A stretch of 46,680 bases of DNA from Amycolatopsis thermalba. GTDB taxonomy: Bacteria; Actinomycetota; Actinomycetes; Mycobacteriales; Pseudonocardiaceae. The stretch spans positions 1 through 46,680 of the forward strand of contig NZ_PQHW01000051.1 in NCBI RefSeq assembly GCF_003385215.1. Reading direction: 5' to 3'. The position numbers and the translations under genes are program-made. The notes under the pieces were generated by a model. The model was not told the DNA's origin and made no database searches. It was given only the letters and a program-made list of their open reading frames with translations. Of the stretch, positions 11,350 to 32,030 are shown one piece after another (position 1 is the stretch's first letter; the number at the start of each line of letters is the position of its first letter).

Positions 11350-11475
11350 CCCACGCTCCCGCCCGCGAGTCCCACGCTCTCGTCCGCGAGTCCCACGCTC
11401 TCGTCCGCGAGTCCCACGCTCCCGCCCGCGAGTCCCACGCTCTCGTCCGCGAGTTCCACGTCCGGCGCCGCGAGT
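11350..11475. repeat. 21-bp tandem repeat, five good units and one degenerate
   Basis: Units start at 11350, 11371, 11392, 11413, 11434 and 11455, each exactly 21 bp. They share the core GCGAGTCCCACGCTC and differ at a few C/T positions. The array fills most of the gap after iclR. Reading frames stay open through it because 21 is a multiple of three, but neither strand gives a plausible protein. The same family recurs, inverted, at 11551-11612 and again at 31947-32030. Confidence 0.85.
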
Positions 11476-11550
11476 TCGACGGTGCTGCTCCCTATCCGCG
11501 CGCGAACACGCTTCATCTCCCGGGCTCCGTCCGCTGCACGCCACGTCGCC

Positions 11551-11612
11551 AGTGCGGGACTCGCGTGCAGGAGTGTGGGACTCGCGTGACGGAGTGTGGG
11601 ACTCGCGACGTC
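11551..11612. repeat. 21-bp repeats, inverted relative to 11350-11475
   Basis: Three units begin at 11551, 11572 and 11593 (21, 21 and 20 bp) with the core AGTGTGGGACTCGCG, the reverse complement of the first array. The last unit runs into the stop codon of the VOC gene, whose final codons (CCCACACTGA) resemble the repeat. Together with the upstream array this forms a large inverted arrangement between convergent genes. Confidence 0.75.
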
Positions 11613-11961
11613 AGTGTGGGGTGCCCACGCAGAACTGGTTTCCCTCCGGGGCCTCGAGCACCGTCCACGCCAGGCCGGGCACCTCGTGCTCGCCGAGCGC
11701 CGTCGCGCCGAGGCCGACCAGCCGGGCGACCTCGCCCTCCCGGTCGGTGGTCGCCAGGTCCAGGTGCAGCCGGTTCTTCCCGGCCCGCTCCTCCGGCACC
11801 TGCTGGAACCCCAGCCGCACCCCGCCTTCGCGCGCGGGCGTCAGCACCAGGTACTCACCCCAGTCCTGGTCGATCCGCACGCCGAGCGCGCCGCACCAGA
11901 ACGCCGCCATCTGCCGTGGATCCGCGCAGTCCACGGTCACCATCCCCAGTTCGAGAGTCAT
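11611..11961 (-). CDS. VOC (glyoxalase/bleomycin-resistance fold) family protein
   Basis: The 116-residue single-domain protein shows the paired beta-alpha-beta-beta-beta modules of the VOC superfamily: an opening LGMVTVDCADPRQMAAFWCGALG, a central RLHLDLATTD and a terminal VLEAPEGNQFCVG with the usual E-x-N metal-site pattern. Members bind or modify small metabolites or sequester drugs. The ATG is at 11961; the gene is alone, convergent with iclR and divergent from proS. The substrate is not predictable. Confidence 0.85.
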   Translation of the reverse strand: MTLELGMVTVDCADPRQMAAFWCGALGVRIDQDWGEYLVLTPAREGGVRLGFQQVPEERAGKNRLHLDLATTDREGEVARLVGLGATALGEHEVPGLAWTVLEAPEGNQFCVGTPH

Positions 11962-25447: not shown

Positions 25448-25534
25448 TGGCGGCCTCCGCGCGGTGGTGGTGCTGCGACATCTGAGGTTCCTGTGGCGAA
25501 GTGCCACTGCCGGGGTGCACAATATAAGCAGTCA

Positions 25535-25552
25535 CGTCAAGGTTGTTTGACG
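25535..25552. promoter_or_regulatory. Inverted repeat upstream of the DUF3145 gene
   Basis: CGTCAA-GGTTGT-TTGACG is a perfect 6-bp inverted repeat in an unusually AT-rich stretch (AATATAAGC just before it), 67 bp upstream of the DUF3145 start. It may be an operator or part of the promoter; the role is inferred. Confidence 0.35.
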
Positions 25553-25618
25553 GCAGGCGCGCCGAGGCTCGCGAGGTCGTAGGGGAAGACGCCCCTCGTC
25601 GAGTAGCGGAGGTCAGCA

Positions 25619-26110
25619 GTGAGCACCCGTGGCGTGGTTTACGTCCACTCGTCGCCGTCTGCGGTGTGCCCGCACGTCGAGTGGGCGATTTCGGGCACCC
25701 TCGGTACCCGGGTGGATCTGAAGTGGACGGCGCAACCCGCCGCTCCAGGGCAGCTCCGCGCCGAGTGCACGTGGAGCGCGCCCGCCGGAACCGGCGCCAA
25801 GCTGGCGGCCGGTCTGAAGGCGTGGCCGATGCTGCGCTTCGAGGTGACCGAAGAGCCGAGCGCCGGTGTGGATGGCGAGCGGTTCTGCTACGTGCCCGGG
25901 CTGGGGCTGTGGCGCGGCCGCACGAGCGCCAACGGGGACATCGTCGTGGGCGAGGACCAGCTGCGCACGCTGGTCGCGACGTGCCGCGCGGGGGAGCAGC
26001 TGGCGCACAAACTGGACGAGCTGCTGGCCTCGAGCTGGGACGAGGCGCTGGAGCCGTTCCGGCACGCGGGGGATGGGGCGCCGGTTACCTGGCTGCATCG
26101 GGTGGGGTGA
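25619..26110 (+). CDS. DUF3145 family protein
   Basis: The 163-residue protein begins MSTRGVVYVHSSPSAVCPHVEWAISGTLG, the characteristic start of DUF3145, a conserved actinobacterial family of unknown function. It ends with a helical part (LRTLVATCRAGEQLAHKLDELLASSWDEALEPFRHA). No signal peptide or membrane segment is present. The start is GTG at 25619 with GGAGG. The 3' side is immediately followed by simple and then 52-bp repeats. Confidence 0.88.
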   Translation: MSTRGVVYVHSSPSAVCPHVEWAISGTLGTRVDLKWTAQPAAPGQLRAECTWSAPAGTGAKLAAGLKAWPMLRFEVTEEPSAGVDGERFCYVPGLGLWRGRTSANGDIVVGEDQLRTLVATCRAGEQLAHKLDELLASSWDEALEPFRHAGDGAPVTWLHRVG

Positions 26111-26114
26111 GTTG

Positions 26115-26165
26115 CCGGGGTTCGGGGTTTCCGGGCCGGGTTTCCGGGTTTCGGGTTTCCGGTGG
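26115..26165. repeat. Short simple repeat after the DUF3145 stop
   Basis: About 50 bp of near-tandem GGGTTTCCGG variants begin within a few bases of the stop codon. It is separate in sequence from the 52-bp array that follows. Confidence 0.6.
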
Positions 26166-26182
26166 TGCTGACCGTTCGCTAG

Positions 26183-26943
26183 GGCGCGAGGTGCCCAGCC
26201 GCGGGCCCAGGAATGGACCGTTCACGCCTTGGTGCGCCCGAGGTGCCCAGTCGTGCGCCGATGAATGGACCGTTCATGCCTTGGCGCCCCCGAGGCACCA
26301 GGCGCGGCGATGAATGTCCATTCATGCCTTGCCCGCCGCGAGGTGCCCACTCGTGGGGCCGTGAGTGGACACCTCGCTGGCGCACGAGATGCCCAACGGT
26401 GCGGTGGTGAATGGTCCATTCATGCCTTCGCCGCCACCAGGTGGCCAGTCGTGTGGCGATGAATGGACCATTCATGCCTTCGCCGCCACCAGGTGGCCAG
26501 TCGTGTGGCGATGAATGGACCATTCATGCCTTGTCGGCCGCGAGGTGCCCAGCCGCGCAGCGATGAATGGACCGTTCATGTCTCGGCGCTCACGAGGTGT
26601 CCAGCCGCGTGGTGATGAATGGTCCGTTCATGCCTTCGCCGCCACGAGGTGCCCAGTCGTGGAGCGATGAATGGACCGTTCATGCCTTGTCGGCCGCGAG
26701 GTGCCCAGCCGCGCGGCGGTGAATGGTCCGTTCATGCGTTCCCCGCCACCAGGTGTCCAGCCGCGCGGTGATGAATGGACCGTTCATGCCTTCGCCGCCA
26801 CGAGGTGCCCAGTCGTGGAGCGATGAATGGACCGTTCATGCCTTGTCGGCCGCGAGGTGCCCAGCCGCGCGGCGGTGAATGGTCCGTTCATGCCTTCGCC
26901 GCCACCAAGTGTCCAGTCGTGCGGTGATGAATGGTCCGTTCAT
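26183..26943. repeat. 52-bp tandem array of 15 units, each with a palindrome
   Basis: A core of ATGAATGG-A/T-CC(A/G)TTCAT, a 17-bp palindrome or near-palindrome, recurs with GAATGG starting at 26211, 26263, 26312, 26363, 26409, 26461, 26513, 26565, 26617, 26669, 26721, 26773, 26825, 26877 and 26929. The last ten spacings are exactly 52 bp; the early ones are 52, 49, 51 and 46, and the fourth unit is decayed. The 35 bp between palindromes are also conserved (CGAGGTGCCCAG) and come in two alternating subtypes. Units 9-11 and 12-14 form a duplicated 156-bp higher-order block. Because 52 is not a multiple of three and both strands carry stops, it is not a protein repeat. It is not a CRISPR, as the spacers are conserved. 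The gap from 26111 to 27089 holds no gene that I can support. Confidence 0.95.
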
Positions 26944-27089
26944 CCACCCGTGACGTGACCACTCGCAGCAGCCAAGCCCGGAGGCCAACCGCCGGGTCGG
27001 CTCAGTCCGTTCACCGGAACGGCCCAACCCCAACCGGCAGCCACCGATGCGGGACAGCACTCGGTAACGATCGCTACTACGCTGCCGAT

Positions 27090-27683
27090 GTGACAGCCAT
27101 GCCGGCGCCTCCCGCAGCACCGCCGCGATGGCTGGTGCCCGTCGTCATCGTCGTGGTGTCGATCATGGTCGGCGGCGGTCTCCTGGCCCGCGAGCTGTAC
27201 CGGCTGCCCGAAGCCGCCCCGGACGCGATCCTCGCTCAGACCTCGCCCGCCCGGCCGCTGGCCGAGCAACCCGGCCCGGGCATCGTCGAGCTCACCCCGG
27301 ACGCCGCCGCGCACCCGCAGAACGCCACGGTCCGCGGGCTGCTGCAGACCTACTTCGACTCGATCAACAACCGCGACTACGAGCTGTGGAAAACGGCCGT
27401 CACGCGGGAACGCGTCCAGGCCAAACCGAAGAGCACCTGGCTCAACGACTACCGCACCACGAAGGACGGCAGCATCCTCGTCTACCGGATCGACCCGGTC
27501 ACCGACGACGAACTCCGCGCCCTGGTCGGCTTCACCAGCACCCAGGACGTCAAGGACGCCCCGGCCGAGCTCCCGGAACCCTGCGTGCACTGGCGGCTCG
27601 TGCTCCCGCTCGCCCTGGAGTCCGGCGCCTGGAAGGTGGACACCGTGACCGGCTCCACCACACCCGAACTGTCCCGCTGCTGA
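27090..27683 (+). CDS. Small membrane-anchored protein of unknown function
   Basis: The 197-residue protein has a short Pro-rich N-terminus, one membrane helix (WLVPVVIVVVSIMVGGGLLA) and an extracytoplasmic domain of about 150 residues. That domain (NATVRGLLQTYFDSINNRDYELWKTAVT) resembles the SnoaL/NTF2-like accessory domains found in many actinobacterial anchored proteins; this is a weak resemblance. The start may be GTG at 27090 or ATG at 27099; no clear Shine-Dalgarno is present. It is isolated between two repeat arrays. Confidence 0.7.
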   Translation: MTAMPAPPAAPPRWLVPVVIVVVSIMVGGGLLARELYRLPEAAPDAILAQTSPARPLAEQPGPGIVELTPDAAAHPQNATVRGLLQTYFDSINNRDYELWKTAVTRERVQAKPKSTWLNDYRTTKDGSILVYRIDPVTDDELRALVGFTSTQDVKDAPAELPEPCVHWRLVLPLALESGAWKVDTVTGSTTPELSRC

Positions 27684-27689
27684 CGGGAC

Positions 27690-28145
27690 GCCCGGCTGAT
27701 GCCTGCCCGGCTTCGAGGCGACCGAATGGAGCTTGGCTAGCGCGTGGCGCGAGAGTGGTCACCCCTGGGGGCTCCGCGGCGGGGCGACTGGCGCCCGGCT
27801 GCTTCAGGGAGCGCGGTTGCTTCCGTACAAAGAGCGCGGGCGACGGATGGGCTGGTGCCTGGCCGACTGTGGGCGCCCGGGTGGAGCTGGCTGGCGCTGG
27901 CGCGAGGGTGGTCCCCCTGGGGAGGACCCGGCGGCGCGGGGACTGACGCCTGGCTGTTCAAGGACAAGCGGCTGCTTCCGTACCAAGGGCGCGGCTGCTG
28001 CCTGCCCGGCGTTGAGGCGCCCGGGTGGAGCTTGGCCGACGCCGGCGCGAGAGTGGCCACCCCTGGGCAGAACCCGCCGGCGCGGCAACTGACGCCCGGC
28101 TACTTCAGGAAAAGCGGCTGCCTCCCACAGAAGGGCCGGGCGGTA
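27690..28145. repeat. About 150-bp imperfect tandem repeat, three copies
   Basis: Marker GCGAG(A/G)GTGG occurs at 27749, 27902 and 28047 (spacings 153 and 145). Around it each copy repeats CCCGGGTGGAGCTTGGC-like, GACTGACGCCCGGCT-like and AGCGGCTGCTTCCGTAC-like blocks in the same order. Frames are open on both strands but not conserved between copies, so it is not judged to be coding. It fills most of the 600-bp gap before the fatty-acid operon terminator. Confidence 0.75.
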
Positions 28146-28244
28146 CCGCCCCCTGGGCACCCCAGAGCCGTCCGACCGCCCCCGGGCGAGAGCAGCTACT
28201 CCTGCCGAGGCAGAGTCCACGAACCGGCACGAAAATGCAAAGAA

Positions 28245-28268
28245 CCCCGGCCACCCACGGCCGGGGTC
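28245..28268 (-). terminator. Terminator of the fab operon
   Basis: ACCCCGGCC-ACCCAC-GGCCGGGGT forms a perfect 9-bp stem with a 6-base loop, 16 bp after the fabF stop on the minus strand. It is followed in that direction by TTCTTTGCATTTTCG, a T-rich tail, fitting intrinsic termination. Confidence 0.85.
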
Positions 28269-28283
28269 CCCGCAAAAACGAAC

Positions 28284-29531
28284 TCACACGCCGGTGAACA
28301 GCAGCGCCGTGTTGTGGCCGCCGAAACCGAACGAGTTGCTCAGCGCCGCGGTCAACTCGACCTTCCGCGGCTCGCCGGCCACCACGTCCAGCCCGACCTT
28401 CGGGTCCAGGTTCTCCAAGTTCAGCGTCGGCGGCACCAGCCCGTGGTACACCGACAGCAGCGTGAGGATGCCCTCGACCGCCCCCGCGCCACCGACCAGG
28501 TGCCCCAGCGCCGACTTCGGCGCCGTCACCACCGGGTGCTCACCCACGGCCTTGCGGATCGCCGCGGCCTCGCCGATGTCGCCGACCACCGTGGACGTCG
28601 CGTGGGCGTTCACGTGCCCCACCTCGGCCGACGTGAGGCCCGCCATGGTCATCGCGTTCGCCATCGCGGCGATCTGCCCGATTCCCTCCGGGTGGTTGCC
28701 GGTGATGTGGTGCGCGTCCGAGGTGATGCCGTACCCGGCCAGCCGCCCGTAGATCCGCGCGCCGCGGGCCTTCGCGCGGTCGGCCCGCTCCAGCACGACC
28801 ACCCCGGCGCCCTCGCCGAGCACGAACCCGTCCCGGTCGGCGTCGAACGGGCGTGACGCGCGCTCCGGCTCGTCGTTGCGCGTCGACACCGTCCGGGCCT
28901 GCGCGAAACCGGCCACGGTGATCGGGTGGATGCAGGACTCCGCACCACCCGCCACCACGACGTCGGCCCGCCCGTTCTGGATCATCTGGTAGCCGTTGGC
29001 GATGCCCTCGGCACCGGAGGCACACGCCGACGCCGGCGAGTGCACCCCCGCCCTGGCCTTGAGGTCGATGCCGACGTGCGCGGCAGGCCCGTTCGGCATC
29101 AGCATCGGCACGGTCAGCGGCGAGACCTTCCGCAGACCCTCCTGCTCGAGCAGGTCGTCCATCGCCAGCAGCGTCAGCGGCCCGCCGATGCCGGTGCCGA
29201 TGGACACGCCGAGCCGGTCCGGGTCGACGTCGGTGTGCTCCTCGCTGGGCTGCTCGAAACCGGCGTCGGCCCACGCCTGCCGGGCCGCGATGAGCGCGAT
29301 CTGCTCACACCGGTCCAGCCGGCGCGCCTGCACGCGCGGCAACTTCTCCGCCGGATCCTCGGCGAGCGTGGCGCCGATCTTGACCGGCAGGTCGAACTTC
29401 TCGACCCAGTCGGCCTCGATCCGCCGGATGCCGCTGCGGCCGGCGAGCAAGCCCTCCCACGTGGACGCGACGTCCCCGCCGAGTGGCGTCGTCGCGCCGA
29501 TCCCGGTGATCACGACGTCGATGTTGCTCAT
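28284..29531 (-). CDS. fabF: 3-oxoacyl-[acyl-carrier-protein] synthase II (FabF)
   Basis: The 415-residue condensing enzyme extends acyl-ACP with malonyl-ACP. The catalytic Cys170 in SACASGAEG, His310 in NAHATST and His344 with Lys339 in KSALGHLVGGAGA are all present. It resembles KasA of mycobacteria and FabF of Streptomyces; there is no second KasB-like copy here. The ATG at 29531 has GGGGAG upstream. It is the last gene of fabD-fabH-acpP-fabF, 42 bp after acpP, and a terminator follows. Confidence 0.96.
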   Translation of the reverse strand: MSNIDVVITGIGATTPLGGDVASTWEGLLAGRSGIRRIEADWVEKFDLPVKIGATLAEDPAEKLPRVQARRLDRCEQIALIAARQAWADAGFEQPSEEHTDVDPDRLGVSIGTGIGGPLTLLAMDDLLEQEGLRKVSPLTVPMLMPNGPAAHVGIDLKARAGVHSPASACASGAEGIANGYQMIQNGRADVVVAGGAESCIHPITVAGFAQARTVSTRNDEPERASRPFDADRDGFVLGEGAGVVVLERADRAKARGARIYGRLAGYGITSDAHHITGNHPEGIGQIAAMANAMTMAGLTSAEVGHVNAHATSTVVGDIGEAAAIRKAVGEHPVVTAPKSALGHLVGGAGAVEGILTLLSVYHGLVPPTLNLENLDPKVGLDVVAGEPRKVELTAALSNSFGFGGHNTALLFTGV

Positions 29532-31846: not shown

Positions 31847-31946
31847 AAATGGCGCCCGTAGGCCGTCTTCCAGCTCTGATGTGTTGTCGGTTCCGGGCAG
31901 GGCGGAAGTGAGACCGGTCACCCAGGGCAGGCTCGCGGGGCCCGGA

Positions 31947-32030
31947 CGTGGATCTCGCGCGCACGAGCGTGGGACTCGCGTTCCTGAACGTGGGACTCGC
32001 GGGCGTTGACGGGGGACTGGCCGCGCGAGC
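31947..32030. repeat. 21-bp repeats, third locus of the family
   Basis: Four 21-bp units start at 31947, 31968, 31989 and 32010, with the core CGTGGGACTCGCG (first and last units degenerate). The sequence is the same family as 11350-11475 and 11551-11612, about 20 kb away. Confidence 0.8.

Follow-up and report, generated by a model that had tools for sequence, protein, structure and literature searches.

Bacterial minisatellites or VNTRs, such as the mycobacterial MIRU, are intergenic tandem repeats of 50-100 bp units that differ in copy number from one strain or species to another. Operator arrays and stoperators of the phage L5 type repeat a single protein-binding site many times over, gene ends included, and are believed to stop RNA polymerase. 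The dyad arrays described here share intergenic tandem units and variable copy number with the MIRU-type minisatellites, but differ in that their units are united by one constrained dyad, which is found again at numerous loci and in more than one genus next to spacers that are unrelated. Like the L5-type operator arrays and stoperators, they repeat a candidate protein site, also at gene ends; however, they are chromosomal and tandem, and searches of phage and viral collections returned no copy.

The dyad family is nearest to the REP elements, but it has no such tag, and most array genomes that were tested do not encode the REP transposase. With REP/BIME elements (GTAG and CGTC families) it shares short palindromes in many copies that are extragenic, located mostly behind genes and sometimes clustered, whereas a short dyad with a free centre and long regular arrays set it apart. 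Inspection of the site listings by eye revealed no GTAG or CGTC end tag beside the dyad sites. A REP/BIME-like placement, extragenic and mainly between convergent or unidirectional genes, was found for 45 of 46 arrays; an array of G031 is a further exception. According to PMC3733652, GTAG REPs have a RAYT/Y1 transposase while CGTC REPs are without a dedicated one. A match to this transposase family (PF01797) occurred in one of 19 Amycolatopsis genomes (G011), itself without an exact dyad site, and none was found in four array genomes, namely those of three Actinosynnema (G063, G100 and G274) and of the relative G193. Two of the three other array genomes tested, from Saccharopolyspora and Rhodococcus KRD162, contained matches. 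A REP-type transposase was considered and rejected: the array genomes of Amycolatopsis, of Actinosynnema and of G193 do not have one, and the two others do. Searches of the open-licence PMC literature turned up none of six forms of the dyad 15-mer and no description of the dyad or array family.

Structure and surroundings of the array

The window, i.e. the whole stretch of 46,680 nucleotides that was analysed, carries a tandem array at 26187-26943 with a period of 52 and 14.8 copies (Tandem Repeats Finder). Thirteen dyad sites with at most three mismatches from ATGAATGGNCCATTCAT were identified in the window, all within the array, compared to a mean of 0.01 and a maximum of 1 in window shuffles (n = 100). 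The preliminary description had placed a 17-bp palindrome in each of 15 units. The array is real and has about 15 unit positions, but only 13 hold a recognisable site, and the palindrome is perfect in only 2 of these 13; by eye, one base has been lost near 26310, and the site near 26361 is of another type. The commonest site form is ATGAATGGNCCGTTCAT, in which seven of eight pairs are self-complementary.

An older, degenerate part (26187-26406) includes the sites at 26209 and 26261, the base-loss site at ~26310 and the different dyad at ~26361. It is followed by a regular part (26407-26943) with 11 dyad sites at 26407, 26459, 26511, 26563, 26615, 26667, 26719, 26771, 26823, 26875 and 26927. 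The ten successive 52-bp spacings noted earlier are exact from 26407 to 26927, and the same spacing separates 26209 from 26261. As copies of one repeat unit, these ten equal spacings do not constitute ten independent lines of evidence for phasing. Two three-unit blocks of 156 bp (26615-26770 and 26771-26926) differ at six bases and agree at the other 150, which bears out their reported near-identity and marks a recent duplication.

Upstream of the array lies a gene for a 163-aa DUF3145 protein (25619-26110, + strand; Pfam PF11343, E 3e-74) with its 3′ end towards the array. The downstream gene (27090-27683, + strand) encodes a protein of 197 aa that matched no Pfam family and has, by eye, a probable N-terminal membrane segment; it served as the conserved neighbour defining the array locus in relatives. 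Between the upstream gene and the array, the left flank (26111-26186) is G/T-rich on the + strand and contains 8-bp GTTTCCGG-like repeats, with skews of +0.21 (GC) and +0.70 (TA) over the 98 nt preceding the first site. The right flank (26944-27089) is C/A-rich on the + strand and mirrors the left. The region looks non-coding, as had been proposed, with a longest stop-free run of 114 residues over 26111-27100. A Pfam scan of six window proteins identified no Cas family, and the window spacers are near-copies of one another, unlike those of a CRISPR; other arrays, such as those of G016, have more varied spacers. Rfam returned no match up to E 1 over 25500-28400.

Other repeats were also observed in the window. 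Directly behind the 197-aa gene, 27694-28125 holds a second tandem repeat of ~155 bp in 2.9 copies. Between two convergent genes, 11350-11620 holds 21-bp repeats of the CGCGAGTCCCAC type that all share one orientation in the left part and the opposite one in the right part, forming a long inverted repeat, and the same repeat family recurs at 31946-32001.

Distribution of the dyad and the single site upstream of the recQ-like gene

The dyad TGAAYGGNCCRTTCA was found in tandem arrays in 8 of the 19 Amycolatopsis genomes examined; Actinosynnema, Rhodococcus and Saccharopolyspora have such arrays too. Within its own genome (7.24 Mb, 222 contigs), RTGAAYGGNCCRTTCAY gave 41 exact matches, clustered on several contigs, versus none for the reversed control, and 103 versus 8 with up to two mismatches. 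Further arrays of this genome carry a related dyad, CGAGWGGNCCWCTCG, with 87 matches at one mismatch or fewer versus 10 in the control. Exact sites numbered 11-43 in eight of the 19 Amycolatopsis genomes and 1-2 in four, and seven had none. Four of 18 genomes from other genera of the same family had 2-3 exact sites, and none of 24 genomes from other families of the order had any. With one genome per species, a search for two sites 25-55 bp apart returned 17 stretches (six in Amycolatopsis, seven in Actinosynnema, three in Rhodococcus and one in Saccharopolyspora), and closer site pairs were found in 12 of 249 genomes in a family-wide scan.

The steps of the arrays recur at 23, 45-54, 73-76, 83-85 and 92-97 bp. 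Spacers are mostly unrelated between loci. From locus to locus, and from one species or genus to the next, the core is conserved, whereas the spacer, the length of the unit and the number of copies differ. When the unit was searched in its own genome and in relatives, as the preliminary description had proposed, the outcome was not one of scattered copies lacking the palindrome, but the phase varied. The window locus carries an array in 6 of the 18 genomes that hold the locus, with intergenic lengths of 589-1233 bp and 4-13 sites; in the other 12 (three close relatives and all nine members of the other clade with a match) it is array-free, with 51-169 bp and no site. In G015, one of the 19 Amycolatopsis, the search with the DUF3145 gene returned no match. 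In G003 the window locus is built of 84-bp units of other sequence that resemble the units of a second G003 array. Blastn with the window array returned no plasmid or phage match, and three dyad patterns had no match in the viral contigs searched; an origin from phage, plasmid or virus was ruled against on the basis of these collections.

Outside the arrays, a RecQ-like helicase gene is preceded by one copy of RYGANNGGNCCNNTCRY in 18 of 19 Amycolatopsis genomes (15 exact, three with one mismatch), whether or not the genome has arrays, G015 being the only one without it. The RecQ-like gene is divergent from a nadD-like gene, identified by a CTP_transf_like match that we take to be nadD, and the site is at the same place throughout. 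Its footprint reaches 1.7-2.0 bits at GA, GG, CC and TC, compared to 0.39-1.37 in the ten left columns and 0.34-1.02 in the right ones, and positions 5 and 13 vary without compensation. In 11 genomes of other genera looked at, the site was present in G033, degraded in G032 and absent from nine. Loci L134-L152 and L154 are such recQ-site loci upstream of the nadD-like gene.

In the array-free genome G001, 48 bp separate the site from the RecQ-like start codon as called, and no other strict intergenic match occurs in ~800 kb, with one further strict match inside a gene; as the recQ site is the only strict intergenic match, this region yielded no regulon or regulator gene. A near-match in G001 was considered as the site of a regulator near its own gene and was rejected, since it precedes a permease gene. 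Likewise, the genes beside single or divergent sites in G031, G033 and G008 encode a hydrolase and an AMP-binding enzyme, or the nadD-like and RecQ-like proteins, and include no regulator. The last residues of the G001 RecQ-like protein gave weak matches to phosphoribosyltransferase/ComF models, below cut-offs.

Constraint on the core, placement and dispersed elements

Repeat copies were compared along diagonals within arrays, with sites annotated by similarity, and 12 core positions were found to diverge at ~0.25-0.6 of the spacer rate. Depending on the setting, core divergence was 0.044-0.156 against 0.170-0.275 for the spacer, with 0.044 versus 0.173 in the narrowest setting and 0.156 versus 0.269 in the laxest; the ratio was below 1 in 9/9, 9/9, 9/10, 17/17, 18/18 and 18/19 arrays under six settings. 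The degenerate positions 1, 6, 9, 12 and 17 drift as fast as the spacer. For the window alone, core mismatches were 6/768 versus 537/2203 in the spacer among sites with up to three mismatches, and 84/1083 versus 478/1999 with up to five. Orthologous arrays, in the pairs with enough data, gave 0.005-0.19 for the core and 0.31-0.38 for the spacer. A comparison using consensus copies as reference, which is biased, gave a modest gap within arrays (core 0.064 versus spacer 0.090) and, in its smallest set of 23 between-species matches at 85%, 0.123 for the core versus 0.102 for the spacer. The earlier claim that palindrome and phasing are kept while the spacer varies holds for the slower divergence of the core, but not for the phase, which is not conserved.

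Centres of the GGNCC type number 23.4 per kb in array DNA versus 8.3 in genes, the arrays having originally been found by such sites. Around these centres in array DNA the half-site reads R-Y-G-A-R-Y-G-G, and about 548 of 1010 half-sites are GAAC, GAAT or GAGT. At positions 6/12, clade I showed TG 85, CG 69, CA 51 and TA 15; the excess of T6/G12 and C6/A12 over the paired combinations indicates that pairing inside the site is not favoured there. Pooled with other genera, the counts were CG 144, TG 90, CA 65 and TA 31, without clear association. The constraint on the site amid the arrays looks base-specific with free positions, as an array of protein-binding sites would be.

In 46 of 50 array rows both neighbouring genes were called, and 18 of these arrays were convergent, 27 tandem and one divergent, compared to 40 convergent, 154 tandem and 61 divergent among 255 other gaps of these loci. 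The gene calls come from a home-made codon model and may be wrong in places, and blastn matches served to group orthologous arrays manually; merging orthologous rows in this way left 27 loci, one of them divergent, whereas the locus-level p-value for divergent placement was computed with 28. The right gene of the single divergent array (L034) is 1144 bp off. G031 departs from the gene-end rule, with four palindromes in 30-bp steps at L102:2128-2234 between divergent genes for a hydrolase and an AMP-binding enzyme, and this is perhaps an operator array. Folding of the 60 nt behind 42 array-adjacent gene ends did not differ from that behind 79 others. With no deficit of RNA hairpins at the array-side gene ends relative to the others, the arrays do not obviously stand in for terminators.

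In Amycolatopsis, G and T are enriched on both sides in the strand that leads to the array, irrespective of gene orientation (e.g. L059, L060 and L057). The left GC skew had the corresponding sign in 17 of 19 loci, each of the three remaining skews in 16 of 19, and the background pooled by context ranged from -0.13 to +0.18 (87 other intergenic gaps, only 10 of them convergent). In Actinosynnema the switch in strand composition was inconsistent.

A different arrangement was observed in G193, which contains 149 half-sites matching TTATGAACGGNCCGTTCATAA with up to three mismatches, perhaps representing 75 dispersed elements. Among the 29 at the top of the listing, a non-random selection, 28 are 55-bp double palindromes, and 20 are located between convergent genes, seven between tandem genes, none between divergent genes and two inside called genes; background gaps in the same loci were five convergent, 43 tandem and 20 divergent. 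The nearer stop codon was 2-16 nt away in 25 of the 27 listed elements with called context. Target-site duplication was discounted for 28 elements, as exact direct repeats of 2-9 bp at the assumed ends amounted to one 2-bp match. Double palindromes of this genome were seen at L094-L101, L114-L133 and L174.

Candidate explanations and their meaning

Taken on sequence evidence, the array is best read as a sequence-specific dyad that was amplified in tandem in particular lineages and whose copies are candidate protein-binding sites at gene ends, a reading to which we give a probability of roughly 45%. The dyad, in which two RYGARYGG half-sites flank one free base, is probably the binding site of a candidate conserved DNA-binding protein, and it is this site that has been multiplied at gene ends. 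A dimeric protein, conserved in Amycolatopsis and possibly beyond, would occupy it; we infer such a conserved protein because one copy upstream of recQ is kept even in array-free genomes. The proposal of a multi-site array for a DNA-binding protein, already made in the preliminary description, looks well founded given the constrained core, the changing spacers and the single footprinted site near the recQ-like start. The protein bound to gene-end arrays might, more tentatively, act as a transcriptional roadblock or insulator between neighbours, and the array would incidentally titrate it. Judging from the block duplications and the changing unit lengths, the arrays probably grow and renew themselves by unequal recombination.

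An unlikely alternative is a new REP-like family of extragenic palindromes acting as RNA, whose hairpins within or between copies would end or protect the 3′ ends of transcripts and which would have expanded to arrays in Amycolatopsis. The arrays are placed behind genes, as this explanation would have it, and PMC3733652 places the REPs of other bacteria mainly between unidirectional and convergent genes. The double palindromes of G193, mostly convergent and 2-16 nt from stop codons, also fit, and their halves are mostly complementary, sometimes where one half is not self-complementary. Folds were strong relative to shuffles for the G193 element (z -11.5 and -11.7), the Rhodococcus array (-6.3 and -5.1) and an Actinosynnema pair (-4.5). 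Of 35 Actinosynnema pairs at a distance of 22-24 bp, 18 had complementary and 13 had equal bases at the centre. Positions 6/12 are paired in Rhodococcus (TA in 13/13), G193 (CG in 16/16) and Actinosynnema (CG in 120/136); together with the compensation between halves in most listed G193 elements, the paired states in Rhodococcus and G193 fit hairpins in those genomes. The Amycolatopsis arrays argue against this explanation, however: stem compensation is absent within their sites, including between the site halves of clade I, the centre bases of clade I neighbours at 20-60 bp are more often equal (56) than complementary (21, with 42 other), and the array pieces tried outdo their shuffled versions in folding by no more than a moderate margin (z -1.9 to -3.0). 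Additionally, hairpins leave the occurrence of one conserved sequence across genera unexplained. The protein-site and RNA-hairpin roles could both be true, in different lineages.

We regard as improbable that the array is a palindrome-driven minisatellite without benefit, in which palindromes cause breaks or slippage, recombination copies units inside a locus and from one locus to another, and the core persists for no other reason than that it drives its own amplification. The recent block duplications, the difference in unit length between species at one locus, the similar 84-bp units at two G003 loci and the empty sites in relatives are all consistent with it, as is the switch of strand composition at the arrays, which is the pattern that repeated resection of breaks would leave. 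The constraint nevertheless looks base-specific rather than structural, with T/G and C/A common and GA, GG, CC and TC kept, and the conserved single site at the recQ-like gene stands outside any array. Far less probable is a phased nucleoid, silencing or partition array, in which protein along one helix face would shape the chromosome. A 52-bp unit is close to five turns, spacings in Actinosynnema favour multiples of 10.5 bp per locus (8 loci, p 0.002-0.014, suggestive), and of the 17 array loci that could be placed relative to dnaA, in five genomes, 13 fall on the same side of it by hand count (G013, G017, G003, G009 and G016; p ~0.05, borderline). The 10.5-bp periodicity was significant with every array counted and related ones taken separately, but helical phasing was lost in Amycolatopsis once orthologous arrays were merged (per-locus R 0.15-0.19, p 0.23-0.45). 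With other steps ranging over 23-97 bp and those of 23 and 46-50 bp being common, the earlier placement of all palindromes on one helix face is not supported, and the partition or nucleoid role found no specific support. Such a role would also have to be dispensable, given that the arrays are missing from close relatives.

A wider form of the protein-site reading appears doubtful to us: a conserved, undescribed protein of Amycolatopsis and related actinobacteria would recognise RYGARYGG-N-CCRYTCRY and guard the recQ-like gene as a single site, the site would have been independently multiplied in several lineages, either into at least 10 arrays on the chromosome or into double sites scattered by the dozen, in both cases at gene ends, and the bound protein would end or insulate transcription, as roadblock termination from repeats. 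If the family is REP-like instead, it would extend such elements to a bacterial group for which none was found described in the literature searched. If one protein binds the dyad, the arrays would provide many natural clusters of binding sites at conserved gene ends, with the empty-site relatives as controls. It would then be testable whether DNA-bound protein at repeats separates transcription units, or how the cell copes with decoy sites.
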